From: Arcobacter arenosus
GTDB taxonomy: Bacteria; Campylobacterota; Campylobacteria; Campylobacterales; Arcobacteraceae
Assembly (NCBI RefSeq): GCF_005771535.1
Contig: NZ_VANU01000001.1
Coordinates: 682,001 to 746,000 of the forward strand
Length of the DNA stretch: 64,000 nt
Direction: 5' to 3'
Under the pieces are notes generated by a model, which saw only the letters and a program-made list of their open reading frames with translations, searched no databases and had not been told where the DNA came from. Below are positions 482-33,630 of this stretch, piece by piece (within the stretch, counting starts at the first letter, position 1; each line of letters begins with the position of its first letter). Made by a program: the position numbers and the translations under genes.

Positions 482-2593
482 CTATAGATAATGCATTTGT
501 TTGTAACCCTCAACTCTTTTTTTATAAGCTGAGTTCAACATTGCATTTTTATTATCAAGAAAATCTATTGCTAAACACTCTTGATTTCCTCTACCTATTC
601 TTCCTAAATACTGAACCAATCTTCCATAATAAGAGATTGGCGTAGCAAAAATAATCGTATTTAGATGGGGAAAATCTATCCCCTCCCCAAAATAAGAAGT
701 TGTAGCTAAAATAAGAGCACTTTTATCAACTAAAGCCATCTTTTCTTCTTGCTCTTTTTTATTTAAACTTCCATGAATAGAAACAAAATCTAAGCCCTCT
801 TCTAAAAGCTTACTTTCTAAAATATTTATATGCTCAATTCTATCAGTTAAAACTAAAATTTTTCTGTTTTTATTTATTTTTATTTGATCAATTAAAAGAT
901 TATTTCTTTTTTCATCCCTTGAAAGCTCATTTATTAACTCTGCATATGTATCAGCAGTACTTTCAAAATCTGTTCGTATTATTTCTAATTTATTTTTAAA
1001 AGTTCTTTTTTTCTTATGCTCATAGGCTATTTCACCTAACTGTTCAATTAAAATTGGATCAAGACCATCTTTTCTTTTAGGTGTAGCACTTAAACCTAAA
1101 ATATATTTTCCAAAAAACTGCTTTACAATTTGCTCAAAGGTTATTGCAGGGATATGGTGACATTCATCAACAATTACAAAAGAGTAGTTATTTATCACAT
1201 CTGTGTTGTTTTTTAAACTTTGCATCGTTGCAACATCTAAATTGCCATTTAGTTTGTTTTTCCCTTTACCTAAATAACCTATATCTTTTTTTGTATAGCC
1301 AAAATAATCAACAAATCTATCAATCCATTGGGTAAGCAACATGTTTTTATTTACAATAATAAGTGTTTTACAAGCTCTTAATTCAAACATTTTTGCCCCA
1401 AGAAGTGTTTTCCCAAAACCTGGAGGTGCGACACAAATAGAAAAATCTTTTTTACTTATCTCTTTAATTGCTTTTTTTTGCTCATCTCTTAGTTCAAATT
1501 TTATCTTTTTTGTTTCAATTTTTTCAAATTGTGTTTTATTTTCTATTATAAAATTTGCATTATTTTCTTCTAAAAACTCTTTTACCTTATAAACTAAACC
1601 CCTAGGAAGTTTTAAATAAACATCATCTTCTTCAAAGCTTTTTATTTGTCTAGGAGTGTTATATAAAGGTTTCCTAAGACTTAATAAAACTTTTATTTGT
1701 GGATTATCAAATGTTGCAAAACTTTTTAATTTGTTAATTAAACTTTTTGATAAATTTTTAGTTGGGATATAAACAAAGTCATAAAGTTTGATTTGTAATT
1801 TAAAACTTGGAAACTCTATATCTTCAAACATATAACTTGTACTATTTACAGTTTTAAAATTAACATATTTTAAAACTGTGTCTTTACTAACTTTTTTTAC
1901 TCTTTGTAAAATTTCCCATTGGTCTTTATATACTGTTTTTGTTTGTGGGTTAAAAAAAAGTGTTTTATTCTCTTGTCTAAATTTTAAATGTAAAGGTAAC
2001 TCTACATAATCACCTAAATTAGCATTTGTAACAAACTCATTATTGGGTAAAATTCTTGCACTAATATGTGCTTTTTTTAAAATATATTCAGCAAAGTTTT
2101 TTACATTTTTTGTTTCGATTTTCTCTTCAAAAAATATCCATAAAAAGCAAGACTTGTAAGAGCTATATTCAAATAGAAAATTTGTTTTTAACATAGAAAA
2201 AGTCTCTAAAATCTTTGATATATCATTTTCTAAAATTTCAAAGACCACATACTTTGATTTGTTTTCACTATCAACTAAATAAGAAGCTAATTGTATTTGT
2301 CCCCTTAAATGGCTTTCTATATCTTTATTTGAAATAGGGATATAGTCATTTCCTTTAAAGGTTCTTGTAACTGGATAAAAACTTTGTTTTTGTCCATCTT
2401 TACTTATCCATTTTTTTGCAAAAATATCTTCTCTATTTATAAATAAAGTTTTAAAAAGTTCAATCTTTTCAAATTTGTTTAATTGCCTTGTAGGTTTATT
2501 TTCTTGTAGTTGTTGTTCAAGAAGCTTTATCTCTTCTTCTATTTTTTGTTTCTGAGAATAAAGCTTTTTTAATTTTTCATGAATTTTGATCAT
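482..2593 (-). CDS. DEAD/DEAH helicase with degenerate TOTE-type AEP primase domain
   Basis: 703 residues. A coiled coil (about 1-35) precedes a region that resembles the primase domain of TOTE conflict-system proteins (about 42-235): NREDIFAKKW (53-62), LWIFFEE (151-157), ELPL and KDQW (223-226). Next comes a superfamily 2 helicase with APPGFGKT (389-396), DECHH (476-480), SATPKR (502-507), a GEGID-type motif near 636-640 and QYLGRIGRG (661-669), so it is probably an ATP-dependent helicase. Where TOTE primases carry the metal-binding DFD, this protein reads F-E-I (118-120), and where they have a nucleotide-binding His before VWIFF it has Phe (150). The zinc-binding Cys cluster and any C-terminal nuclease are absent. 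The primase part is therefore probably inactive. It overlaps the bactofilin gene by 17 nt. Confidence 0.85.
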   Translation of the reverse strand: MIKIHEKLKKLYSQKQKIEEEIKLLEQQLQENKPTRQLNKFEKIELFKTLFINREDIFAKKWISKDGQKQSFYPVTRTFKGNDYIPISNKDIESHLRGQIQLASYLVDSENKSKYVVFEILENDISKILETFSMLKTNFLFEYSSYKSCFLWIFFEEKIETKNVKNFAEYILKKAHISARILPNNEFVTNANLGDYVELPLHLKFRQENKTLFFNPQTKTVYKDQWEILQRVKKVSKDTVLKYVNFKTVNSTSYMFEDIEFPSFKLQIKLYDFVYIPTKNLSKSLINKLKSFATFDNPQIKVLLSLRKPLYNTPRQIKSFEEDDVYLKLPRGLVYKVKEFLEENNANFIIENKTQFEKIETKKIKFELRDEQKKAIKEISKKDFSICVAPPGFGKTLLGAKMFELRACKTLIIVNKNMLLTQWIDRFVDYFGYTKKDIGYLGKGKNKLNGNLDVATMQSLKNNTDVINNYSFVIVDECHHIPAITFEQIVKQFFGKYILGLSATPKRKDGLDPILIEQLGEIAYEHKKKRTFKNKLEIIRTDFESTADTYAELINELSRDEKRNNLLIDQIKINKNRKILVLTDRIEHINILESKLLEEGLDFVSIHGSLNKKEQEEKMALVDKSALILATTSYFGEGIDFPHLNTIIFATPISYYGRLVQYLGRIGRGNQECLAIDFLDNKNAMLNSAYKKRVEGYKQMHYL

Positions 2594-3020
2594 GCTTAAT
2601 TTGGTGAGCTGGAGTTAATATAATATTATTGATTTTATTTTCAACTTCATCATATCTACTTTCAAGTTTAGAACCTTTTCTAATACCTTGTCCTTCAAAC
2701 TTTCCATTTTCTTCTATAATTAATTCATTGTATTTCATATTACCAATCACTTTACCCTCAGGTAAAATTTGTACCTCATTACAATCAATCTTTCCATCAA
2801 GAAGCCCACTTACAATTAAGTTATTAGCTTTTATATCACCAATTACTTCACCTGTTTTACCAATTGAAATTAAATCAGCTTCAAGGATTACACCCTCAAA
2901 TTTTCCATCAATATGAACACTTCCTTCAGTGGTAATTCCACCAATAATACATGTCCCCTGTGCTATAACTGTTGCACCATTCTGTACTGTTCGTTTATTA
3001 GCCTTACCAAAGATTCCCAC
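2577..3020 (-). CDS. ccmA: bactofilin, CcmA-like cytoskeletal protein
   Basis: 147 residues. The core (about 15-120) is a run of short hydrophobic beta-strands with regular glycines (GSVHIDGKFEGVI, ISIGKTGEVIGDI, LIVSGLLDGKI), the right-handed beta-helix of bactofilins, flanked by short polar tails. Bactofilins polymerise without nucleotides and position cell-wall enzymes; in Helicobacter pylori CcmA acts with Csd peptidases to set helical shape. The start is a GTG at 3020 behind GAGGAG six nt away. The gene overlaps the end of the M23 peptidase gene by 58 nt and the helicase start by 17 nt, so the genes are almost certainly co-transcribed and perhaps translationally coupled. Confidence 0.9.
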   Translation of the reverse strand: MGIFGKANKRTVQNGATVIAQGTCIIGGITTEGSVHIDGKFEGVILEADLISIGKTGEVIGDIKANNLIVSGLLDGKIDCNEVQILPEGKVIGNMKYNELIIEENGKFEGQGIRKGSKLESRYDEVENKINNIILTPAHQIKHDQNS

Positions 3021-3892
3021 TGAATTCTCCTCTCTTTTTTGAAAATTGTTTCATATGTTTTAAAATCCCATCTTATAAATTCTCTTGGATTCAATACCAT
3101 TGACCCAAATCTTATCTCATAGTGTAAATGTGGTGCTGTACTACTTCCACTATTACCACTTAAGCCTATCTCTTGATTTTTTCTTATTATATCACCAACT
3201 TTAACATTTGTCTTGTTTAAATGAGCATAAACCGTTTGAAATCCAAAATTATGTTGAATTTTAATAACTCTACCAAAACCACCTCTATCTTTTGATTGTA
3301 CAAAACTTACAACTCCATCTGCAGTTGAATAAACTGGAGTTTTTCTTTTTGCCCTTAAATCAATCCCTTTATGAAAAGTTTTTTTCTTTGTAATGGGATG
3401 AACTCTATACCCATATCTTGAAGTTATAGTTGATTCTTTTAAAGGTGCCCCACTAGGGATTGTTGTCAACATAAATAGTTTTAACTTTTCACTTATAGAT
3501 TTTAAAGTTTCTTTTGATATCTCTTCTTTTTTATCTTCTACATTTTTAAGACCAATCATCTCTTCAATATGATCAAGCTTTGAACTTAAAGCCTCAATAT
3601 CTTCAACTTTACCTTTTATTTGCATAGAATAAAATTGATTTTGAGCTTGTAGTTTTTTCTCTTTTTCATTTAGAGTTTCAATTTCAATCTCTTTTAATTC
3701 AATTTCTCTTTCTTTTTGCGTCTTTAAATCATCCATTTCTTCATTTAGTTCTTTTATAAACCAAAATGCACCTGCGATAATTAAAGTGGTAACAAGAATA
3801 ATAAGAACGATAAGTTTTTTTGCAATTTGATGAATATTAAATGCTCTTGTTCCTTTAACATCAGAAATTGTAATTATTAATCTATCTTTCAT
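2963..3892 (-). CDS. membrane-anchored M23 peptidase, Csd1-like
   Basis: About 309 residues from the chosen start. A short cytoplasmic stretch precedes one transmembrane helix (LIVLIILVTTLIIAGAFWFI), then a charged coiled coil of roughly 80 residues, then the M23 (LytM) domain with HKGIDLRA (HxxxD) and HLHYEIR (HxH) zinc ligands. It probably cuts peptidoglycan peptide crosslinks in the periplasm. Adjacency to a bactofilin mirrors csd1-ccmA of Helicobacter, which set cell curvature. An ATG at 3925 is also in frame. I prefer the ATG at 3892 (MKDRLIITIS) because it has GGGG just upstream and overlaps folC by only 11 nt rather than 44. Confidence 0.88.
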   Translation of the reverse strand: MKDRLIITISDVKGTRAFNIHQIAKKLIVLIILVTTLIIAGAFWFIKELNEEMDDLKTQKEREIELKEIEIETLNEKEKKLQAQNQFYSMQIKGKVEDIEALSSKLDHIEEMIGLKNVEDKKEEISKETLKSISEKLKLFMLTTIPSGAPLKESTITSRYGYRVHPITKKKTFHKGIDLRAKRKTPVYSTADGVVSFVQSKDRGGFGRVIKIQHNFGFQTVYAHLNKTNVKVGDIIRKNQEIGLSGNSGSSTAPHLHYEIRFGSMVLNPREFIRWDFKTYETIFKKERRIQWESLVRLINEQYRMVQQL

Positions 3893-8933: not shown

Positions 8934-9205
8934 GATATCCTCGATAAATAATAAATATTAACAATTATATATGAACATATGTCAAGAAAAGTTTAAGAAA
9001 GTGTATGATTTATGACTTTTATTATATATTATTTAATTAAATATTTTTAATATTAAAAAATAGGCATTTTTATTAATTTAGATTTTGAGGAAAAATCTAG
9101 GCAGATAGATTATTTATAAAGGAGTTTACATAAAGTAAATGACTGAAATAAATCATCGTATCTAACGACGATTTATTCCAAAAGATGAATTAAGAAAAAT
9201 GTTTA
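8934..9205. other. 272-nt intergenic region with hairpins
   Basis: No open reading frame with a ribosome binding site is visible. It holds the secF-distal hairpin (9145-9179) and a second perfect 8-bp stem, TAGATTTT with AAAATCTA around a GAGGA loop, at 9079-9099. The 8933 gene probably has its promoter in the lower third. A small RNA is possible but nothing proves it. Confidence 0.4.
9145..9179 (-). terminator. hairpin at the end of the yajC-secDF operon
   Basis: A 15-bp stem with a 5-nt loop. On the minus strand the arms are GGAATAAATCGTCGT and ACGATGATTTATTTC; the only two imperfect pairs are G-U wobbles in that strand but A-C mismatches in the other. This fits a transcript from the minus strand ending after secF (stop at 9206). 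No strong T-tract follows, so it may act as an RNA end or stability element. Confidence 0.6.
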
Positions 9206-10174
9206 TTAAACAGTTCCTTGCTCATACATAGCCCTCATCTTATCCTTCTCTTTTTGTCTTTTAGTCTTCTCAGCTTCTTTTGCTCTAAAATTAGCAATTG
9301 AGAATTTTAATTGCACTAAAAATGATGCCGCTATAAAAATAGATGAATAAGTACCAACTACAATACCCACAAGTAAAGTAAAAGCAAATCCATGAATAAT
9401 CTCACCACCAAACATAAATAGTGTTATTACAACAAAGAATGTTGTTAATGAAGTAAGAGTTGTTCTTGAAAGTGTTTTAGAAACAGAATCATTTACAACT
9501 GACTCCAAAAGAGTTTCTTTTGAACTTTGAATACCTTCTCTAACCCTGTCAAATACAATAATTGTATCGTTTAGTGAATACCCTAAAATAGTAAGGATTG
9601 CTGCTAAAATATCAAGATTAACTTCTACACTAAATAAAGATATTGCACCCATTGCAATAGTAACGTCATGTGCTAAAGCCAAAATAGATGCAACTGCAAA
9701 TCTCCATTCAAATCTAAATGAAACATAAATTAAAATAACAACTAATGAAAGTCCTAAAGCCATAAGACCTTTTTCTCTTAATTCTCCACCAACTTTTGGC
9801 CCAACCATATCAACTCTTCTTACTTCAAAGTTTCCAGTTGAGTCAAGCAATTTATGCATTTGGTCACCAATATCAGTTGCTAAATCACCAGAAGTTCCTG
9901 TAATTCTAATTACTACTTCTTCAGGACTACCAAATTCAGTAATTGATGAACCCTTATATTGAGTCCCATTTAATACTTCTCTAATTTTATCAATTGGTGC
10001 TTTTTGTTCATATTTTACTTGAACCAATGTACCACCAGCAAAGTCAATACCAAAGTTTAGACCTTTTGTAACAAGTAATACAATAGAAGCTGCAACTAAT
10101 AGTGCTGAAAGTCCAAGGAATGGGATTCTTTTTCCCATAAAATCATATATTTTTCCGCTTTTAAATATTTCCAT
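9206..10174 (-). CDS. secF: protein translocase subunit SecF
   Basis: 322 residues. An N-terminal helix (IPFLGLSALLVAASIVLLVT) is followed by the SecF signature GLNFGIDFAGGTLVQVKY, a periplasmic P4-like domain (about 60-125) and five further membrane helices with ILGYSLNDTIIVFDRVRE. With SecD it uses the proton gradient to pull exported proteins out of the SecYEG channel. Its ATG overlaps the secD stop by 1 nt. The tail is charged (KEAEKTKRQKEKDK). Confidence 0.97.
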   Translation of the reverse strand: MEIFKSGKIYDFMGKRIPFLGLSALLVAASIVLLVTKGLNFGIDFAGGTLVQVKYEQKAPIDKIREVLNGTQYKGSSITEFGSPEEVVIRITGTSGDLATDIGDQMHKLLDSTGNFEVRRVDMVGPKVGGELREKGLMALGLSLVVILIYVSFRFEWRFAVASILALAHDVTIAMGAISLFSVEVNLDILAAILTILGYSLNDTIIVFDRVREGIQSSKETLLESVVNDSVSKTLSRTTLTSLTTFFVVITLFMFGGEIIHGFAFTLLVGIVVGTYSSIFIAASFLVQLKFSIANFRAKEAEKTKRQKEKDKMRAMYEQGTV

Positions 10175-11739
10175 TACTTAATCCCAAACCATTTTCTTAA
10201 GTTTTTGTCCCTTGATATTTTTGGCATAATCGCCTCATAAATACCATGAGTTCCTAAAATTGCTGTTAACATTGATGCTAAAATACCAATAGAGATTGTT
10301 ACTGCAAACCCTTTAATTGGTCCTGTTCCATATGCGTAAAGAATAACAGCAACTAATAAAGTTGTAATATTTGCATCAAGAATTGCTCTCATTGCATTTG
10401 AATAACCATCTTCAATAGCTTTTGGAATAGACATTCCTGCTCTTAATAATTCTCTAATTCTTTCACCAATAATAACATTGGCATCAACTGCCATACCAAC
10501 AGTTAATACAATACCTGCCATACCTGGAAGTGTTAAAGTTGCACCAAACATTGCCATTACAGCAACAATAATAAATATATTTGTAACAAGTGCAACATTT
10601 GCAATAATTCCTGCATATCCATAATAAACAATCATAAAAATAAATACTAATGCAAAACCAGATACTAAAGCAATCGTTGAAGCTTTAATAGAATCAGCTC
10701 CAAGTGATGGCCCAACACTTCTTTTTTCAAGTAGTGTAACACCAGCAGGAAGTGCTCCAGATCTTAAAGCAATTGCAACATTTCCAGCTTCTACAACAGT
10801 AAATCCACCAGAAATTTGTCCAGATCCACCACCAATTCTCTCTCTAATATTTGGTGCTGAATAAACTTTTCCATCTAATACAACTGCAAGTCTTTTACCT
10901 ACATTTTTACCTGTAAAATCACCAAAGATTCTTGCACCTGCAGCATTTAGTGTAAAATTAATAATTGGTTGATTCCCTTGGTCAAAAGCAACTTGAGCAT
11001 CAACAACTTGGCTACCATTTAAAATTGGAATCTCTTTTACAAGATATTTTTTATTTGGATCTGTTGTATCTTCTAAAATAATATCACCATACTCTGATGC
11101 CTGTGCTCGACTTAGTGTATAAACTTGATCAGCTCTTTCTTCATCAATAGCCATAAGTTCAAGATTAGCAGGCTTTGAGATAAGTTCTCTAGCTGCCTTT
11201 TCATCCTCTTGTGTTTTAATACCTGGAAGTTGAACAACAATATCAGTTTCCCCTTGTCTAATAACAGTAGGTTCTGCTAGACCAAATTGGTCAAGTCTAT
11301 TTCTTATTGTTTCAACAGCTTGAGCAACTGCTAAGTCTTTTGTTACTGCTACTTCTTCTGAAGTAATTTCAACCTTATACTCAAGATCACTTTTTGTGAT
11401 ATTAAGTCCTTTTATCTCATCAAGCATTTTATCAACTCTTGGTAATTCATCTTTATCAAGTACAGTAAAAACAATACTTTTTTCTCTAATAGATAAACCA
11501 TCAATTAAAATATCTTCATCATCTGTAAAATACTTAATTGAAGTTGCGATTGATTTAATTTTTGAAGTAACTGCTTCTTCAGTTTTTACACCTAAAAGCA
11601 TATGTAGTCCACCTTGTAAATCAAGTCCTAGAGATATTTTTTTACCTGAATCTGTTTGTAGAAAAGAGGGGATAGAGAATACTACTCCAAAAATAATACT
11701 TAGTGTGAATATAATCATTCTGTAATTAAAGATTTTCAA
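10174..11739 (-). CDS. secD: protein translocase subunit SecD
   Basis: 521 residues. One N-terminal helix, then GLDLQGGLHMLLGV (the SecD signature), a large periplasmic domain (P1, about 45-330) and five C-terminal helices with AVDANVIIGERIRELL. The AVDANVI segment carries the conserved Asp of the proton path. The start is TTG at 11739, with AAGGA seven nt upstream, and the protein begins KIFNYRMIIF. It is co-transcribed with secF (1-nt overlap) and lies 67 nt after yajC, with a perfect hairpin in the gap. Confidence 0.97.
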   Translation of the reverse strand: MKIFNYRMIIFTLSIIFGVVFSIPSFLQTDSGKKISLGLDLQGGLHMLLGVKTEEAVTSKIKSIATSIKYFTDDEDILIDGLSIREKSIVFTVLDKDELPRVDKMLDEIKGLNITKSDLEYKVEITSEEVAVTKDLAVAQAVETIRNRLDQFGLAEPTVIRQGETDIVVQLPGIKTQEDEKAARELISKPANLELMAIDEERADQVYTLSRAQASEYGDIILEDTTDPNKKYLVKEIPILNGSQVVDAQVAFDQGNQPIINFTLNAAGARIFGDFTGKNVGKRLAVVLDGKVYSAPNIRERIGGGSGQISGGFTVVEAGNVAIALRSGALPAGVTLLEKRSVGPSLGADSIKASTIALVSGFALVFIFMIVYYGYAGIIANVALVTNIFIIVAVMAMFGATLTLPGMAGIVLTVGMAVDANVIIGERIRELLRAGMSIPKAIEDGYSNAMRAILDANITTLLVAVILYAYGTGPIKGFAVTISIGILASMLTAILGTHGIYEAIMPKISRDKNLRKWFGIK

Positions 11740-21310: not shown

Positions 21311-22609
21311 TTATTTGCCTTCTCTTAATCTAACTCTAACTGATTCAGCGTGGGCAGTAAGACCCTCTGTATCTGCTAAAATAGCACAAGCTTCACCTAA
21401 CTCGTCAATTGCTTGTTTAGAGAAGTTGATAATTGAACTTTTTTTCATAAAGTTTTCAACATTTAATGGGCTATAAAACTTAGCTGTACTTCCTGTAGGA
21501 AGAGTATGATTTGGTCCTGCTATATAATCACCAATTGGTTCAGGTGTATTTTCACCTAAGAAAATTGCACCTGCATGTTTTATTTTTGGTAATAATTCAA
21601 AGGCATTTGTTGTCATAACCTCTAAGTGCTCTGGAGCAATTTCATTCATAAGTTCAATTGCTTCATCCATAGAAGATGCAACAATAATAGCACCTCTTTC
21701 TTCAATAGATTTTCTAGCAATCTCTTCTCTACTTAAAGTTTTTAAATAAGCTTCAACCTCATCAGAAGTTTTAGATGCAACATCACTTGAAGTTGTAATC
21801 ATAATTGAACTTGCCATCTCATCATGTTCTGCTTGTGATAAAAGGTCAATTGCTAAATATTTTGGCTTAGCAGTTTCATCACTTAAAATACCAATTTCAG
21901 AAGGTCCTGCAATCATATCTATGTTCACTTCACCAAATACTAATTTTTTAGCAGTTGCTACAAAAATATTTCCAGGACCTGTTATTACATCAACCTTTGG
22001 AATAGTCTCAGTTCCGTATGCCATTGCAGCAATTGCACTTGCTCCTCCAACTTTAAATGCCTTACTTACATTACAAATATGACATGCTGCAAGAACTAAT
22101 TCATTTATCTCATTATTTGGAGTTGGTGTACAAACAACAATCTCCTCAACTCCTGCTACAATAGCTGGAATTGCATTCATTAAAAGTGAACTAGGGTATG
22201 CTGCTTTTCCACCAGGAATATATAATCCAGCTTTATCAACAGGAGTTACCTTTTGTCCTAAAACTGTCCCATTTTTTTCAAAATCAATCCATGATTTTGG
22301 TAGTTGTTTTTCATGGTAAGACTTAATTCTATCGTATGCAATATGTAAAGCTTTTTTTAAATCATCATTAATATTTTCATAGGCTTTTTTCATATCTTCT
22401 TGAGAAATCATTAAATCTTCATCTGATTGAACTTCCCATTTATCGAATTTTTCAATATGAGCCTTAACTGCTTTGTTTCCCTCGTCAACAATCTCATCAA
22501 TTATATCTGTAACAATTGCAGAAACATGTTTAATATCTGTTTTTGCTCTACTTAAAATATTTTCAAATTCACTTTTGAAATTTGCATCATTTGTATTAAT
22601 AATCTTCAT
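21311..22609 (-). CDS. hisD: histidinol dehydrogenase
   Basis: 432 residues. Signatures include YIPGGKAAYPSSLLMNAIPA, GPGNIFVATAKKLVFG, DMIAGPSEIGIL, LLSQAEHDE and IAPEHLEVM; the last two contain the zinc ligands and the catalytic Glu-His pair. It oxidises histidinol to histidine, the last two steps of the pathway. Its ATG overlaps the aroK stop by 1 nt (TAATG). hisG is 40 kb away in this window, so the his genes are scattered. Confidence 0.97.
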   Translation of the reverse strand: MKIINTNDANFKSEFENILSRAKTDIKHVSAIVTDIIDEIVDEGNKAVKAHIEKFDKWEVQSDEDLMISQEDMKKAYENINDDLKKALHIAYDRIKSYHEKQLPKSWIDFEKNGTVLGQKVTPVDKAGLYIPGGKAAYPSSLLMNAIPAIVAGVEEIVVCTPTPNNEINELVLAACHICNVSKAFKVGGASAIAAMAYGTETIPKVDVITGPGNIFVATAKKLVFGEVNIDMIAGPSEIGILSDETAKPKYLAIDLLSQAEHDEMASSIMITTSSDVASKTSDEVEAYLKTLSREEIARKSIEERGAIIVASSMDEAIELMNEIAPEHLEVMTTNAFELLPKIKHAGAIFLGENTPEPIGDYIAGPNHTLPTGSTAKFYSPLNVENFMKKSSIINFSKQAIDELGEACAILADTEGLTAHAESVRVRLREGK

Positions 22610-23121
22610 TATATCTTTCCTAATATATCTTTTACGATATCTTCAATATCTTTATCTTCCACATTTACAATTACATCGGCAACTTTTTTATAATCTTCTA
22701 CTCTTTGCTCGTAAAGCTTTTTACCCTCTTTTAAATCTTTTAAAAGTGGTCTTTTTCTAAGTTTTGCTTTTGCATTTGGTGATTTATTGATTCTTCTTAA
22801 AATCCCTTCAAAACTTGATTCAAGATAGATTACTTTCCCAATATTGTGGATATTTTCTTGTCTAAAGAAACCTCCACCTGTTGAGATAATTGTATTATCA
22901 ACATTTTTTTCAAGCCACAAAGCACATTTTTTTTCAAGGTTTCTAAAATAAGCTTCACCCTCTTTTTTGAAAATCTTTTTTATGGTTCTTTTTTCGATAC
23001 TCTCAATTAAGTCGTCTGTATCGATAGCAAAATAGTCTGAGGCTTTAACTAATGCTCTAGCAGTTGTTCCCTTTCCAACTCCCATAAATCCAATTAGTAT
23101 TATATTGTTTTTTCTTTCCAA
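22609..23121 (-). CDS. aroK: shikimate kinase
   Basis: 170 residues. It phosphorylates shikimate in the aromatic amino-acid pathway. The P-loop is GFMGVGKGTTARAL (from Gly11): the position after GK is Gly instead of the usual Ser/Thr, followed by Thr19, resembling the GKGT of adenylate kinase. Other family marks are DTDDLIE, FRNLEKK, ISTGGGFF and RKRPLL (lid). The start is TTG at 23121 with AGGA seven nt upstream. It is the first gene of the minus-strand aroK-to-cca set; the upstream gap of about 126 nt probably holds the promoter. Confidence 0.93.
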   Translation of the reverse strand: MERKNNIILIGFMGVGKGTTARALVKASDYFAIDTDDLIESIEKRTIKKIFKKEGEAYFRNLEKKCALWLEKNVDNTIISTGGGFFRQENIHNIGKVIYLESSFEGILRRINKSPNAKAKLRKRPLLKDLKEGKKLYEQRVEDYKKVADVIVNVEDKDIEDIVKDILGKI

Positions 23122-23247: not shown

Positions 23248-26106
23248 TTATTTTAAAGGTAGATAAATACTAAACTTTGCACCTTTATATTTGATATTAT
23301 TATATTCAAACTTTTCATTTTCTACAATAATTTTTCCACCCATATGTTTTTCAATAATTTGGTGAGTCATATAAAGACCTATTCCAGTCCCTTGTGCTTG
23401 GTGTTTAGTTGTAAAATATGGATCAAATATTTTTTCTATTATACTATTTTTTATCCCTCCACCATTATCTAAAACTGTCACAATAATATTTTCTTTATCT
23501 GATTTTACATTTACAAAAATTAGTTTTTCTTCTTGAGTTTTATCTTTTAAAGCATCCTTTGAGTTATAAAAAATATTTAATAAGGCTTGAGTAAATTCAT
23601 TTTCATAACTTTTGATTTTACAATCATCTTTTTGCTCAAATATCATTTGAATATTATTGCTTTTTAATATCCCCTCAATTAGCATAAGATTCTTTTCTAT
23701 AGATTTTAAAACTGAAAACTCTTTTTTCTCTTTATCAGTTTTAAAAAAGTTTCTAAAGTCTTCAATAGTTTGAGAGAGGTGTTGTGCTGTATTATTAATT
23801 TTTTCCAAATCTTTCTTTTCATCATCAAAATCTGTTACACCTAACTCTTTTTTTACAATAATTCCTGTTGCTATACTAGAAACTAAACTTAAAGGTTGTC
23901 TCCACTGATGAGCAATATTTTCAATCATCTCACCCATAGCTGCCATTTTTGATTGTTGTGATAAAAGTTTATCTTTTTGTTTTAACTCAGTTAAATCAAT
24001 AACAGATGAAATTCTAACTCTTTTTGAATCTAATATAGCATCTTTACCTTTTGCAAGTACATGAAACTCTTCCCCATCTTTTTTTTGTACAATAATTTCA
24101 TAGGCATCTTCTTGGTCTGTTTTTATATTTTTAGCCACTAAATCATATGATTTAGGACTAACAAAATCTTTTATGTGCTGACCTATTACTTGATCTTTAT
24201 TTTCAAAACCAAAAAGCTCTGCCGCAATTTTATTTGACTGTAAACATTTTCCATTTTCATCAAATACAAAAACTCCTTCATTTACTGAGTCTAAAAGTAT
24301 TTCAAAACTTTCTAGGGAGGTTTCTAATTTTTTTTGAGTTTTACTTAAAATATTATTGTATTTTTTTAATTGTCTGTTTCTAAAATATGCAATTATTATT
24401 ATAATAAGAAATATCCCTAAAATCTCAAATAAGTATTTAAAATTGTCTGAGGATTCAACCTTTACAGAGATATATCTATTAAAAATCTCCTGCATTGTTG
24501 AATGGGGAATACTCTCAATAGCCTTTTGAATTATTTCATATAATAATTCATCATCATTTCTAACTGCAATTCCTAAATCAAATTTTCTATCAAATTTACC
24601 AGTAATCTTTAAAGTATCAATAAATTCATGTTGAAGTACATATGCAATTGTTGGTAAAGAATCTACAAAACCATACAATTCGCCAGATCGAACTTTTTCA
24701 AGTCCTTGTTTTATATTATTAACATCAACAATTTTATTATTAGGGTATTTATTTTTTAAATATTCTCCCATAGAATACCCTTTTACAATACCTACTTTTT
24801 CTTTTTCAATAATATCTTCAGGATTTGGTAAAAAGAATTTCTCAGTGGAAGTTGCTATTACCACAGGAAAATTAATATAAGAGCTTGTAAATTTTAAATA
24901 TTTTAATCTTGAAGGTGTTTCTTGGGCAAGGGAAAGGATATCGCATTTTCTTTGTTTTGCAAGATTTAAAGAATCAGACCATGTTTTTGTAGGGATTACG
25001 TTTATTTCTAAATTAGTTTTTTCAGAAATTAATTTAAGAAAATCAGCTGTCATACCAATATGTTTTCCCTCTTCATTAAACATTTCATAGGGCATCCAAT
25101 TTGGATCAATACATACTTTAATCTCTTTTTTCTTTTTTATATACTCTTTTTCTTTTTCTGAAAAATCTATATTACTATATGTAAATATTTTATTAAAAAG
25201 AAGTTTATCAAGGGGAATATTAGAATGGGATCTTAAAATATCTTGATTAACAACATTCTCAATAATTTCACCAACTTTATAAATAGCAGTCATCATTAAT
25301 TTTTCAGTCTCTTTTGCTTCAAATAATAAGGCATCCTTTGATTTTATTTTTGAATATTTTTCAATAATAATATCAGATATCTCTTCTTTATTATCAAATG
25401 CATAATTCCACCCTTTGTTTGTGGCTTCTAAAAACTTTTGTACCATCAAAGGATTTTTTTTTGCGTTAGAATATGAAGTAAATAGATTTAAACCACCACC
25501 AATAATTCCATAATTTTCTGGGTCTATAATTCGATATGGTATTTGTGATTTTTTTACATGGTAAAGTTCATTTGAAACAAATGCAGAAAAAGCATCAACC
25601 TCACCATTTATAAATTTTTCTCCCGTAAAATCATGGTCAACTGAAATAAAATCGCTTTGTTTTATTTTATGTTTTTTTAAAAGTTCCCCAAGTAATGAAT
25701 CTTTTAATTCATTTTTTAAATACATTACTTTTTTACCCTTTAAATCTTCAGGGACTATAATATCTTGTTTTGTAACAAAAACTAAAGCAGATTTTTTAAA
25801 ATAATTGGCAACTAATACAATTGGTTTTTTTTCATCGTAAAGATTTAAATATGAAGTATCATAAAGCCCAAAAGTAGCTCTATCATTTTTAACTTCATCT
25901 ATTACATTTATATCTCCAACAAATTCATTTATTTGAACATCTAAACCCAAATCTTTATAAAAACCTTTTTCTTTTGCTGCAATAAAACCCGCAAATTCAA
26001 ATTGATATTTCCAATTTAATTGTAAAGTTACTTTTTCTAAGTTTTGAGAGGAGAAAAGTTCACTAGTAATAAGTAAAGAAAAGATTATTAATCTTATAAA
26101 GTTCAA
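23248..26106 (-). CDS. sensor histidine kinase with two different periplasmic binding domains
   Basis: 952 residues. Signal peptide (1-20); a THI5/NMT1-type binding domain (about 24-310; LQLNWKYQFEFAGFIAAKEK); an SBP_bac_3-type amino-acid binding domain (about 327-548; VCIDPNWMPYEMFNEEGKHI); one membrane helix (557-576); a PAS domain (about 598-705); and a kinase core with His733 in HQWRQPLS, an N-box, DNGGGI and GTGIGLYM. The HWRQPL H-box is the variant frequent in Campylobacterota. It probably senses a small nitrogenous ligand in the periplasm and phosphorylates an unlinked response regulator, since none is adjacent. The start is TTG at 26106 with AAGG nearby. Confidence 0.9.
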   Translation of the reverse strand: MNFIRLIIFSLLITSELFSSQNLEKVTLQLNWKYQFEFAGFIAAKEKGFYKDLGLDVQINEFVGDINVIDEVKNDRATFGLYDTSYLNLYDEKKPIVLVANYFKKSALVFVTKQDIIVPEDLKGKKVMYLKNELKDSLLGELLKKHKIKQSDFISVDHDFTGEKFINGEVDAFSAFVSNELYHVKKSQIPYRIIDPENYGIIGGGLNLFTSYSNAKKNPLMVQKFLEATNKGWNYAFDNKEEISDIIIEKYSKIKSKDALLFEAKETEKLMMTAIYKVGEIIENVVNQDILRSHSNIPLDKLLFNKIFTYSNIDFSEKEKEYIKKKKEIKVCIDPNWMPYEMFNEEGKHIGMTADFLKLISEKTNLEINVIPTKTWSDSLNLAKQRKCDILSLAQETPSRLKYLKFTSSYINFPVVIATSTEKFFLPNPEDIIEKEKVGIVKGYSMGEYLKNKYPNNKIVDVNNIKQGLEKVRSGELYGFVDSLPTIAYVLQHEFIDTLKITGKFDRKFDLGIAVRNDDELLYEIIQKAIESIPHSTMQEIFNRYISVKVESSDNFKYLFEILGIFLIIIIIAYFRNRQLKKYNNILSKTQKKLETSLESFEILLDSVNEGVFVFDENGKCLQSNKIAAELFGFENKDQVIGQHIKDFVSPKSYDLVAKNIKTDQEDAYEIIVQKKDGEEFHVLAKGKDAILDSKRVRISSVIDLTELKQKDKLLSQQSKMAAMGEMIENIAHQWRQPLSLVSSIATGIIVKKELGVTDFDDEKKDLEKINNTAQHLSQTIEDFRNFFKTDKEKKEFSVLKSIEKNLMLIEGILKSNNIQMIFEQKDDCKIKSYENEFTQALLNIFYNSKDALKDKTQEEKLIFVNVKSDKENIIVTVLDNGGGIKNSIIEKIFDPYFTTKHQAQGTGIGLYMTHQIIEKHMGGKIIVENEKFEYNNIKYKGAKFSIYLPLK

Positions 26107-26146: not shown

Positions 26147-27046
26147 TCAATTATTTAAGTCAATTTTATTTTTAAACTTCCTTAGATATCTATCTATCAT
26201 TGTCTTATTTCCTAAAATTCCACCTTGATGTATATATAAAAGTGTTGTATCCTCATTAAAATATTTAGAAGAACACATTGAAATAAAACCTAAAGGATCA
26301 TATAATAGATCAAATTCAATATTTGTATCTCTTAAAACTTCTTCATAAATTTCAAAAAACTCCTTATAAAGTTTCCCAAAATGGTACTTTTTACCAAGCC
26401 TTATTATATTTGGATGATAGTTTTCATTTTTTTCCAAATGAAAAAACTGATTTTTTAAATACTCTTCCCCACCCACACAAGGTACAGTTAAAACTTCAAA
26501 AGATAAGTTTTTTTGTAAAAAAAGTGCCGTTGTACCTGTGCCACTTGGTAAAAATATTTTTAAATCTTTTATAGAGTTTTCCTTTGCCCAAGAGTTAATT
26601 TCATCGGCTAAGATTTTAATTCCATATTGGGCTTCTTGAACTCTACCACCCTCTTCTATAAATAAAGTCTCTTCATTTAATAAATTTTTTTCAATATATT
26701 CTTGAATATTTTCATCATTTTTTTCAATGATATTTGCCCCATTTTCCAAACTTGCCTTATAATTTCCACAAGGGTTTTCTTTTAAGTATGAGCTTATATG
26801 ATTTACATAAAAATCAAGTTTTAAATTTTTTAATTTGGCTAAAACAGATAAAGAGTATAAAGAATTAGCTTGAGCAGAACCAAAACTTACTATTTTTTTA
26901 ATATTTGGAAAATCATTTTCTAAAAAATAGTAAAATTTTCTAGCTTTATTTCCAGAAAATTTTTCATCTAAAAGATCGTCTCTTTTGATATATATAGTTC
27001 TATTTCTAAATTTTGTTTTTGTTATGGGAGAGTTTTTATAATTCAT
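26147..27046 (-). CDS. PLP-dependent enzyme of the ACC deaminase / D-cysteine desulfhydrase family
   Basis: 299 residues of fold-type II. The Schiff-base lysine is Lys34 in KFSGNKARKF, the phosphate-binding loop is PSGTGTTALFL, and the C-terminal HQGGILGN matches this family. Substrates in the family are 1-aminocyclopropane-1-carboxylate, D-cysteine or L-cysteate; I cannot tell which from the motifs. It lies 40 nt upstream of the sensor kinase on the same strand and may be transcribed with it. The start at 27046 is 46 nt from the divergent exbB start. Confidence 0.85.
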   Translation of the reverse strand: MNYKNSPITKTKFRNRTIYIKRDDLLDEKFSGNKARKFYYFLENDFPNIKKIVSFGSAQANSLYSLSVLAKLKNLKLDFYVNHISSYLKENPCGNYKASLENGANIIEKNDENIQEYIEKNLLNEETLFIEEGGRVQEAQYGIKILADEINSWAKENSIKDLKIFLPSGTGTTALFLQKNLSFEVLTVPCVGGEEYLKNQFFHLEKNENYHPNIIRLGKKYHFGKLYKEFFEIYEEVLRDTNIEFDLLYDPLGFISMCSSKYFNEDTTLLYIHQGGILGNKTMIDRYLRKFKNKIDLNN

Positions 27047-31607: not shown

Positions 31608-32288
31608 ATGAGAATATTAATTATTGAAGATGAAATCACATTAAACAGAACACTACAAGAGGGACTAACTGATTTTGGTTACCAAGTAGATGCTGCTGAA
31701 AACTATAAAGATGCTGAATATTTTATCGACATTAGAAATTATGATTTAGTTCTAACTGACTGGATGTTACCAGATGGTGATGGAATTGAATTATGTAAAA
31801 TCGTAAAAAACAGAAGCTCAAGAACTGCAGTTGTTATTCTTTCTGCAAGAGATGATAAAGATTCTGAAATCGAAGCATTAAAATCAGGAGCTGATGATTA
31901 TATTAAAAAACCATTTGATTTTGATATCTTACTTGCAAGAATTGAAGCAAGATTAAGATTCGGTGGAACTAATATTATTGAAATTGAAGATTTATCAATT
32001 AACCCTGATGAAGAAAAAATTGAATACAATGGTGAAGAGATTGAATTAAAAGGTAAACCTTTTGAAGTATTAACTCACCTTGCAAGACATAGAGATCAAA
32101 TTGTTTCTAAAGAGCAATTATTAGATGCTATCTGGGAAGAGCCAGAATTAGTAACTCCAAACGTAATTGAAGTTGCAATTAACCAAATTAGACAAAAAAT
32201 GGATAAACCATTAAATATCTCTACTATTGAAACTATTAGAAGAAGAGGTTATAGATTCTGTTATCCAGATACTCAAGAAGAAGCATAA
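31608..32288 (+). CDS. OmpR-family response regulator, HsrA/CosR homologue with intact receiver
   Basis: 226 residues. The DNA-binding half (about 125-220), with FEVLTHLARHRDQIVSKEQL and RRRGYRFCYP, closely matches my memory of Helicobacter HsrA (HP1043) and Campylobacter CosR. Those orphan regulators lack a normal phosphoacceptor. Here the receiver is complete: Glu7/Asp8, Asp51 in LTDWMLPDGDG, Ser79 and Lys101 in IKKPF. A histidine kinase follows 13 nt downstream. It is probably a global transcription regulator that can be phosphorylated. GAGGAA precedes the ATG. Confidence 0.93.
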   Translation: MRILIIEDEITLNRTLQEGLTDFGYQVDAAENYKDAEYFIDIRNYDLVLTDWMLPDGDGIELCKIVKNRSSRTAVVILSARDDKDSEIEALKSGADDYIKKPFDFDILLARIEARLRFGGTNIIEIEDLSINPDEEKIEYNGEEIELKGKPFEVLTHLARHRDQIVSKEQLLDAIWEEPELVTPNVIEVAINQIRQKMDKPLNISTIETIRRRGYRFCYPDTQEEA

Positions 32289-32301: not shown

Positions 32302-33630
32302 ATGAGTATTCTAAAACCAAAGAGCATTTACAAGCAGTTTCATCAAAAGCTTGTAATTGCTACTTCATTACTAATCATTATTTTATCTTTTATTTTTTAT
32401 GGATATACAAAATCAACAATCTTTGATGAGATTCAAGATTCACTTTATGCTGATGCACAGTTGATTTTAGAAGTTAGTAAAACTTCAAATGTAAATACAA
32501 ATAATTTTAACCTTATAACTAGTAATGGAATTAATGTAGATATAGTAGAACTACTAAATGTTCCTCAAAGCGGATATACATACTTTAAAGTTGGAAATAA
32601 ACATTTTATTCAGATTCTTTATCCCTTTGATGTAACAAAAAGAAAATATATAAAAATTGTAAAAAATATTGATTCTTCTATTGAGATGTTAAATAAAATA
32701 TTTAACAACCTTTTATTAATCTCTTTGGGAGGTTTAATAATGGTAGTTTTATATGCCTTTACAGTTTCAAAAACACTTTTAAGACCTATTATTCAAATTA
32801 CAAATAAATTGTCAAATATGGATGAAAACTTTTTATCTCAAATAAAAAAAGACAATTTACCAATTGAGTTTCACCCACTTGCAAACTCAATAAACTCTTT
32901 AATGACAAGAATTGAAACTAATATAAAATTTAAAAAAGAGTTGTTTATTGGTGTTGCCCATGAATTAAAAACACCCCTAGCTGTTATGAAACTAAAAAAT
33001 GAAGTTGCTCTTATGAAAAAAAGAGAAGCTGAAAAATATCAAGAGACTATGAGATTAACAGTTGAACAAATTAATGATATGAATAAAATGATTAGTTCAA
33101 TCTTAGATATTGGTCGTGCTGAAGGTGCTCAATTTGAAAAACCTGAAGAGATTGATTTAGTTAAATATCTACAAAGAAAAACTAATGATTACAGAATGCT
33201 TAGTGCTAAGAAAAAAATAGTAATTACATTTTTTTCAAATGTAAATCACCATGAAATTTATGTTCAACCAACTTTATTAAATCAAATAATTCAAAATTTT
33301 GTTCAAAATGCTATAAAGTTTACACCCGATGAAAAATCTATTGCAATTAGATTAGAAAAAGAAGCTAACACTACAACTATAACAGTAACAGATGATGGTC
33401 CAGGAATTGATGAATCAATAGACCTTTTTGCCCCATTTAAAAGAATGGGAGAAGAAAGTGGTGCTGGATTGGGATTATTTTTAGCTAAAAATGCAGCTGA
33501 TTCTTTAGAAGCTACTGTAAGTTTAAAAAATAGAACAGATGATAAGAACGGTTGTGTGGCAACACTAATATTGCCAAACACTACCATACCAAAAAAGAAA
33601 GAATCTAAAAAAGAGACTAGCCAAAAATAG
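32302..33630 (+). CDS. sensor histidine kinase, partner of the HsrA/CosR-like regulator
   Basis: 442 residues. TM1 (16-34), a periplasmic loop of about 100 residues without a recognised domain, TM2 (136-156), a HAMP-like linker, then HisKA with His220 in VAHELKTPLAV, and an ATPase domain with NQIIQNFVQNAIKF, DDGPGID and GAGLGLFLAK. It probably autophosphorylates and passes phosphate to the regulator just upstream. The C-terminal tail is Lys-rich (PKKKESKKE). Its end overlaps the convergent CoA-binding gene by 14 nt. Confidence 0.93.
   Translation: MSILKPKSIYKQFHQKLVIATSLLIIILSFIFYGYTKSTIFDEIQDSLYADAQLILEVSKTSNVNTNNFNLITSNGINVDIVELLNVPQSGYTYFKVGNKHFIQILYPFDVTKRKYIKIVKNIDSSIEMLNKIFNNLLLISLGGLIMVVLYAFTVSKTLLRPIIQITNKLSNMDENFLSQIKKDNLPIEFHPLANSINSLMTRIETNIKFKKELFIGVAHELKTPLAVMKLKNEVALMKKREAEKYQETMRLTVEQINDMNKMISSILDIGRAEGAQFEKPEEIDLVKYLQRKTNDYRMLSAKKKIVITFFSNVNHHEIYVQPTLLNQIIQNFVQNAIKFTPDEKSIAIRLEKEANTTTITVTDDGPGIDESIDLFAPFKRMGEESGAGLGLFLAKNAADSLEATVSLKNRTDDKNGCVATLILPNTTIPKKKESKKETSQK

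Follow-up and report, generated by a model that had tools for sequence, protein, structure and literature searches.

The gene at positions 23248-26106 (minus strand) of a 64,000-nucleotide stretch of the Arcobacter arenosus genome (NCBI RefSeq assembly GCF_005771535.1, contig NZ_VANU01000001.1, forward-strand positions 682,001 to 746,000; hereafter the window) encodes a 952-amino-acid sensor histidine kinase, which is a variant of the BvgS type with a mixed pair of Venus-flytrap domains and is common in its bacterial family. We consider it probable that the protein is a transmembrane sensor kinase of the BvgS/EvgS kind with an NMT1-type first flytrap, and that it phosphorylates a response regulator encoded elsewhere. 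The observations behind this reading are the domain order, both binding folds (from profiles and from predicted models), the catalytic residues, sequence conservation and the absence of an adjacent regulator gene.

Domain order and conserved kinase residues

The gene was delimited by its open reading frame, its Pfam matches and its start site, a TTG codon with an AAGG that ends 7 bases 5′ of it. Profile evidence consisted of Pfam matches against curated cut-offs, supplemented by reading of the N, G1, and G2 boxes. From the N-terminus, and with all features on the minus strand, the protein begins with a signal peptide or hydrophobic segment (residues 1-20, 26047-26106; residues 1-19 by hydropathy and a helix at 2-19 in the model), followed by an NMT1/THI5-like flytrap domain (Pfam residues 36-242, 25381-26001, within a fold of about 22-306) and an SBP_bac_3 flytrap domain (residues 329-546, 24469-25122), each identified by Pfam, alignment and structure match. 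A transmembrane segment (residues 556-576, 24379-24441), seen by hydropathy and as a helix spanning 556-590 in the full model, leads to the Pfam-defined PAS domain (604-707, 23986-24297), the HisKA or dimerization and histidine phosphotransfer (DHp) domain (724-791, 23734-23937), and the HATPase_c catalytic domain (836-951, 23254-23601). Since residues 1-19 and about 553-580 are the only two hydrophobic segments in the protein, both binding-type domains are predicted to lie in the periplasm.

Both binding-protein profiles matched well above their cut-offs, NMT1 (PF09084) with E = 1.4e-40 (140 bits; cut-off 20.5) and SBP_bac_3 with E = 1.1e-19 (70.9 bits; cut-off 26.4). Two PAS models matched the kinase (PAS at 604-686 and PAS_9 at 610-707), while HisKA scored exactly at its own cut-off (26.9 bits; E = 5.1e-6). 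The hallmarks of a histidine kinase are present, namely the H box (HQWRQPL) and the N, G1, and G2 boxes. The phospho-acceptor His733 (23908-23910) lies in the H box and, like N848, D880, G884, and G906, is conserved in 32/32 aligned sensors. A preliminary description of this gene, made from its sequence, had proposed a PAS-containing kinase of the HWRQPL type, which these results confirm.

Predicted structures and comparison with known sensors

AlphaFold models were built from 32-sequence alignments comprising the window protein and relatives from fetched loci, and reached a pLDDT (predicted local distance difference test) of 82.2 in the full-length model and 90.2 in the periplasmic model. When the periplasmic model was compared with solved structures (VIA-align), residues 22-306 matched ThiY (3ix1; Z = 30.1, root-mean-square deviation [rmsd] 3.2, 284 aligned) and the thiamin-binding 4nmy (Z = 28.6, rmsd 3.0, 279 aligned), and residues 313-549 matched the periplasmic-binding-protein domain of RmcA (7ejg; Z = 30.8, rmsd 1.7, 236 aligned) and the second Venus-flytrap domain (VFT2) of BvgS (3mpk; Z = 29.6, rmsd 2.0, 232 aligned). 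The top tandem matches in Foldseek were the periplasmic regions of BvgS and EvgS, with overall rmsd values of 18.8 and 16.3; with values this large, support is limited to the fold of each half and does not extend to a shared arrangement or packing. The domain search thus recovered both folds, and, because each half matches solved structures, neither region lacks a binding-protein fold, which bears out the earlier proposal that NMT1 and SBP_bac_3 are combined in one polypeptide. The same description had called the two binding types unrelated. They do belong to two distinct families, but unrelatedness is an overstatement, as both are flytrap folds and presumably members of the same periplasmic-binding-protein clan.

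The closest overall resemblance is to BvgS of Bordetella and EvgS of E. coli, with which the kinase shares tandem flytraps (in the periplasm, as predicted here), one transmembrane segment, PAS, HisKA, and HATPase domains. A section of PMC5829827 takes as BvgS-type those proteins that match PF00497 and PF00512, both with E < 0.001; the corresponding values here are 1.1e-19 and 5.1e-6. Unlike in BvgS and EvgS, the first flytrap is NMT1 (PF09084), so that a single PF00497 stretch is present instead of two, and no regulator gene is adjacent. The membrane-proximal domain matches VFT2 of BvgS, but there is no Pfam match to a receiver or histidine phosphotransfer domain after the kinase, and the protein ends at residue 952, just past HATPase_c. 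An SBP_bac_3 flytrap on a membrane signalling protein is also found in CdgH of V. cholerae and RmcA of P. aeruginosa, the latter providing the closest solved structure to our SBP_bac_3 domain (Z up to 31.4). Those proteins differ in ending in GGDEF/EAL domains (available portions of PMC5431781 and PMC8846402), and CdgH is described as having two amino-acid-type flytraps, the first of which binds arginine (same portion of PMC5431781); a ligand was carried along when CdgH was purified, according to that paper. Among the open-licence PMC matches listed, no title or opening abstract described an NMT1-type sensor kinase; "NMT1" does not occur in the accessible part of the Arcobacter butzleri genome paper (PMC2147049), and "BvgS" genes appear in a table within the accessible part of PMC6690266.

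The NMT1 pocket departs from thiamine-type binding proteins

The NMT1 fold is shared with ThiY (3ix1), 4nmy, and Thi5 (4h67, 4esx) at Z = 25-30 and 16-22% identity, but here it is fused to a kinase and its pocket differs. A W32-x-x-Q35-F-x-F-A-G40 stretch (25987-26013, minus strand) contains W, Q, and G residues that are invariant in 32/32 aligned sensors. Six residues past the shared Trp, where 3ix1, 4nmy, and Thi5 have a His that we take to be a ligand contact, our protein has F38 (Phe in 28 and Tyr in 4 of 32). The Asn of the W-x-P-N-x-x-H motif of 3ix1 and 4nmy aligns with Q35, so that the Asn and His pair of ThiY and thiamin-binding proteins is absent. The functional residues of the THI5 4-amino-5-hydroxymethyl-2-methylpyrimidine phosphate (HMP-P) synthase are K62, H66, and a CCCFC motif, none of which is kept; they align with Y82, Y86, and GGGLNLF, and neither Lys nor His is among the commonest residues at positions 82 and 86 across the 32 sequences.

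As the family name hints, the domain could sense thiamine or a precursor such as HMP or N-formyl-4-amino-5-aminomethyl-2-methylpyrimidine (FAMP). The nearest solved folds, the FAMP-binding ThiY and a thiamin-bound binding protein (Z = 28-30), would agree with this view, but the replacement of the shared His by F38 and of Asn by the invariant Q35, and the loss of the Thi5 residues, argue against it, and we regard it as quite improbable. The loss of these thiamin- and HMP-type residues suggests instead that the NMT1 ligand is probably something other than HMP or thiamine, and the earlier suggestion of a thiamine- or pyrimidine-like compound is not favoured. A literature search found no paper on the ThiY pocket. 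Gene context was also tried as a guide to the ligand and gave no clue, the neighbours of the relatives being mixed (judged mostly from the beginnings of reading frames).

NMT1-SBP_bac_3 receptors are recurrent and carry different outputs

To place the kinase among its relatives, we used the NMT1 domain as a query at E ≤ 1e-25. Seven proteins of the same genome matched, the kinase included. The six siblings have the architectures NMT1-SBP3-SBP3-GGDEF, NMT1-SBP3-HK (two proteins), NMT1-SBP3-PAS-GGDEF, NMT1-GGDEF, and NMT1-SBP3 (589 residues), so that SBP_bac_3 is present in six of the seven, and the output is a kinase, a GGDEF domain, or none. The 589-residue protein (locus L154, 2626-4392, minus strand; contig G000:C9) has NMT1, SBP_bac_3, and a transmembrane segment, and ends about 10 residues past that segment with no output domain; as a receptor it is either broken or dependent on a partner.

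Across 60 genomes, a set that includes our own, the subfamily gave 141 matches in 44 genomes. All but one lie in reading frames of at least 418 residues (the exception being a 228-residue frame in G054), which makes the subfamily look sensor-only. In an even sample of 200 genomes from the phylum, 29 had the NMT1-SBP_bac_3 tandem at E ≤ 1e-110. It was also present in 4 of 185 genomes from the class to which a Cycloclasticus relative belongs (the relative itself counted), and a Methylophaga genome has it with one in-frame stop. A whole-length relative on plasmid pACLO of Arcobacter cloacae (WP_129013766.1; 38.5% identity at 100% query coverage) carries the annotation "ABC transporter substrate-binding protein"; an OmpR-type response regulator gene follows it with an 8-bp overlap. 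In that locus (L171, 6001-9643), the sensor kinase relative and its regulator stand beside type I secretion genes. The tandem architecture is therefore recurrent rather than unique, and common in Arcobacteraceae, where mixed NMT1/SBP_bac_3 receptors are ordinary; the one annotated record inspected names a homologue as a transporter protein.

A tree of 47 NMT1 domains, obtained by a quick search and with 17 of 44 inner branches weak, required five changes between kinase and GGDEF outputs (three rows without an output being left out of the count), at least three of which are forced by well-supported branches. Because several such changes are needed, the sensor has moved between outputs.

One input or two

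The two flytraps are predicted to stand in series in the periplasm, with NMT1, of the apparently sensor-only subfamily, distal to the membrane and SBP_bac_3 proximal to it. By analogy with BvgS (available parts of PMC4352136 and PMC5829827), their movements would pass through the membrane-crossing helix to the PAS and DHp domains. There, judging from the anatomy shared with BvgS, movement may set the balance between kinase and phosphatase activity, and phosphate would pass to a response regulator encoded elsewhere. The SBP_bac_3 domain might either bind a free ligand or mainly act as a relay, as VFT2 of BvgS is thought to do. Ligand binding, topology, the direction of signalling and the partner are the parts of the scheme that we infer. 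Mean pairwise identity among 16 syntenic orthologues was 0.53 for NMT1, 0.53 for SBP_bac_3, 0.41 for PAS, and 0.64 for DHp; two-input sensing is plausible, as the protein has both folds and they are conserved to the same degree. To this extent the proposed integration of two ligands stands on anatomical grounds, while the particular ligands suggested for it are weak guesses.

In amino-acid-binding proteins an Arg (R77 of LAOBP) binds the α-carboxylate and an Asp (D161 of LAOBP) the α-amino group, according to the portion of PMC5431781 available. Residue correspondence in our domain was set by alignment to RmcA, and the equation with LAOBP R77 and D161 is presumptive. The carboxylate-binding Arg is kept as R400 in 27/32 aligned sensors and 15/16 syntenic orthologues. 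Position 395, where a Ser/Thr would stand five residues before the Arg, is variable (Met, Val, Ile, or Ala in 25/32). RmcA itself, reported as an L-arginine sensor in a section of PMC8846402, keeps the ammonium-binding Asp but is also without this Ser/Thr. With the Arg kept and the Asp and Ser/Thr replaced, amino-acid binding is possible but would not be canonical, and the suggestion of an amino acid as second ligand is in keeping with the carboxylate side of the site but not with the α-amino side. For the two pockets together, W32, Q35, G40, and R400 are conserved, and the thiamin-type His and the SBP_bac_3 Asp are not.

Several observations weigh against the reading of a BvgS-like kinase with two sensing domains. 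The position of the ammonium-binding Asp, which aligns without gaps with the Asp of RmcA, is S483 in our protein and is mostly Thr (10), Ala (8), Ser (7), Cys (2), or Asn (2) among the 32 sensors. One syntenic orthologue (L102 in genome G023, 1498-3528, minus strand) is without NMT1 yet retains the kinase, so that NMT1 is dispensable there. The predicted template modelling (pTM) scores, 0.42 for the full-length and 0.60 for the periplasmic model, make the domain packing unreliable. Finally, the Pfam NMT1 profile recovers, besides the seven proteins, six weaker matches in the same genome, in frames of 248-467 residues, and the term sensor-only depends on an E threshold and on frame length as a proxy for domain content.

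A single-input alternative, in which NMT1 senses and SBP_bac_3 relays movement mechanically without a ligand of its own, the role proposed for VFT2 of BvgS, draws on some of the same facts. The replacement of the α-amino Asp (S483; Thr, Ala, or Ser in 25/32) and the variability of residue 395 are consistent with it, and VFT2 is described as closed without ligand in the available part of PMC4352136. However, R400 is widely kept, SBP_bac_3 is conserved as much as NMT1, RmcA, its nearest relative of solved structure, is reported to be an L-arginine sensor (PMC8846402, in the section available), and L102 retains SBP_bac_3 while lacking NMT1. We therefore hold the relay to be a real possibility, though one we lean against.

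The SBP_bac_3 domain also carries C332 (codon 25111-25113, minus strand) and C388 (codon 24943-24945, minus strand), the sole cysteines of the periplasmic part. In the alignment, both are present in 29/32 sensors, one in a single sensor and neither in two; because almost every relative has either both or neither, a C332-C388 disulfide is suggested.

The response regulator and a possible link to cyclic di-GMP

No response regulator gene adjoins the kinase gene in the window. The nearest (31608-32288, plus strand) has its own kinase beside it (32302-33630), in agreement with the preliminary description, which had noted no regulator nearby. Two regulator queries detected none abutting the kinase in the 19 loci with conserved synteny (the flanks being short in several), and many other relatives gave no regulator match within the stretch covered. 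An OmpR-type regulator stands beside one paralogue from the same genome (L153), and a REC-Trans_reg_C-PAS-GGDEF protein follows the relative in L021.

A different pattern was seen in one Desulfurellales clade (100% support in the Shimodaira-Hasegawa-like approximate likelihood-ratio test, SH-aLRT), where a relative of a REC-PAS-EAL protein abuts or overlaps the kinase gene in 7/7 loci (L015-L019, L022, and L036). The relatives of the L015 protein in the other six loci are 65-91% identical to it; L015 and L017 were domain-scanned. Three of the loci are truncated by the contig start, among them L016, where the sequence does not reach the receiver. An eighth Desulfurellales locus (L023), which falls outside the clade, has no REC-PAS-EAL gene upstream of the kinase, and directly beyond the kinase the contig stops.

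These neighbours raise the possibility that the output is cyclic di-GMP (c-di-GMP), reached by way of a REC-GGDEF-EAL regulator that is not linked to the kinase gene, for instance the one encoded at G000:C1:512113, which has no kinase beside it and whose receiver is 55% identical to that of the Desulfurellales proteins. The view gains from the three siblings in the same genome that end directly in GGDEF. On the other hand, the orphan regulator occurs in genomes without the kinase (e.g., G003, G004, G006, G009, G012, and G015), so that the two show no co-occurrence, candidate receivers in the genome number in the dozens, and other relatives pair with OmpR-type regulators. We judge this particular output unlikely, though not remotely so; a c-di-GMP-linked output is a lead hinted at by the relatives. 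Co-occurrence was also tried as a means of finding the partner and was abandoned, the orphan being present both with and without the kinase across the 60 genomes.

A broader view can be put forward tentatively, and we would not yet bet on it. The W-x-x-Q-F-x-F-A-G proteins may form a sensor-only NMT1 subfamily, with a non-thiamine ligand of its own, in Campylobacterota and some other bacteria. Joined to SBP_bac_3, the domain might serve as a portable two-input gate that was put repeatedly on kinases and diguanylate cyclases; the Desulfurellales kinases would then signal to c-di-GMP phosphodiesterases, and as many as seven receptors in a cell could respond to one environmental compound. Should the conserved NMT1 pocket have a single ligand, knowing its identity would account for several receptors of each genome together, and might link that compound to c-di-GMP signalling.

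The neighbouring PLP enzyme gene is conserved independently of the kinase

Upstream of the kinase gene, on the same strand and separated by a 40-bp gap, lies a gene for a divergent pyridoxal phosphate (PLP) enzyme related to 1-aminocyclopropane-1-carboxylate (ACC) deaminase and D-cysteine desulfhydrase (26147-27046, minus strand), a conserved neighbour that is probably outside the system. The enzyme is very divergent; at E 0.1 Pfam yields nothing but a sub-threshold match to DUF7004, and the score for NCBIfam TIGR01275 is 41.5 bits against a cut-off of 289.4. The conserved neighbour downstream is aroK (shikimate kinase by Pfam; 22609-23121, minus strand).

The preliminary description had suggested that the PLP enzyme acts on the ligand. 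If kinase and enzyme were a functional pair, with the ligand as the enzyme's product or substrate, one would point to the PLP gene standing immediately upstream in 19/19 distinct syntenic kinase loci (15 genomes plus L011-L014). That adjacency is, however, explained by synteny, because the wider gene order exbB/PLP-aroK-hisD is conserved. The PLP gene was present in 54/60 genomes, with one match per genome, whereas full-length syntenic kinase orthologues were found in 14/60 (at most 14 candidates being scored per genome), and L102, which is without NMT1, brings the count to 15/60. Of 30 PLP loci (ours among them), the kinase is present in 12, PLP is followed directly by aroK with no kinase in 8 (L113, L117, L118, L119, L122, L124, L125, and L127), and the remaining 10, L126 among them, have other arrangements. 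The same place is taken by a dCache_2 kinase in L126 and apparently in L129. This distribution makes the kinase an optional passenger in a conserved housekeeping row. A ligand-processing role for the PLP enzyme is unlikely, and a functional pairing of the two genes, which was rejected on the genome distribution, is in our estimate very improbable indeed. The co-occurrence check proposed at the outset thus found PLP commonly without the kinase, and neither the PLP-enzyme claim nor that of thiamine-type sensing should be passed on.

The chromosomal place beside PLP holds different sensors in different genera. In L126 the gene just after PLP (2382-3854, plus strand) encodes a dCache_2-HisKA kinase by Pfam, and in L129 a similar kinase, judged by eye, occupies the same position (2383-3861, plus strand). 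In L102 the protein consists of an N-terminal hydrophobic segment, SBP_bac_3, a PAS region, and the kinase, and its gene still lies between PLP and aroK. In L009 a PAS-PAS-GGDEF gene (8958-10583, plus strand) is inserted between the kinase gene and aroK.

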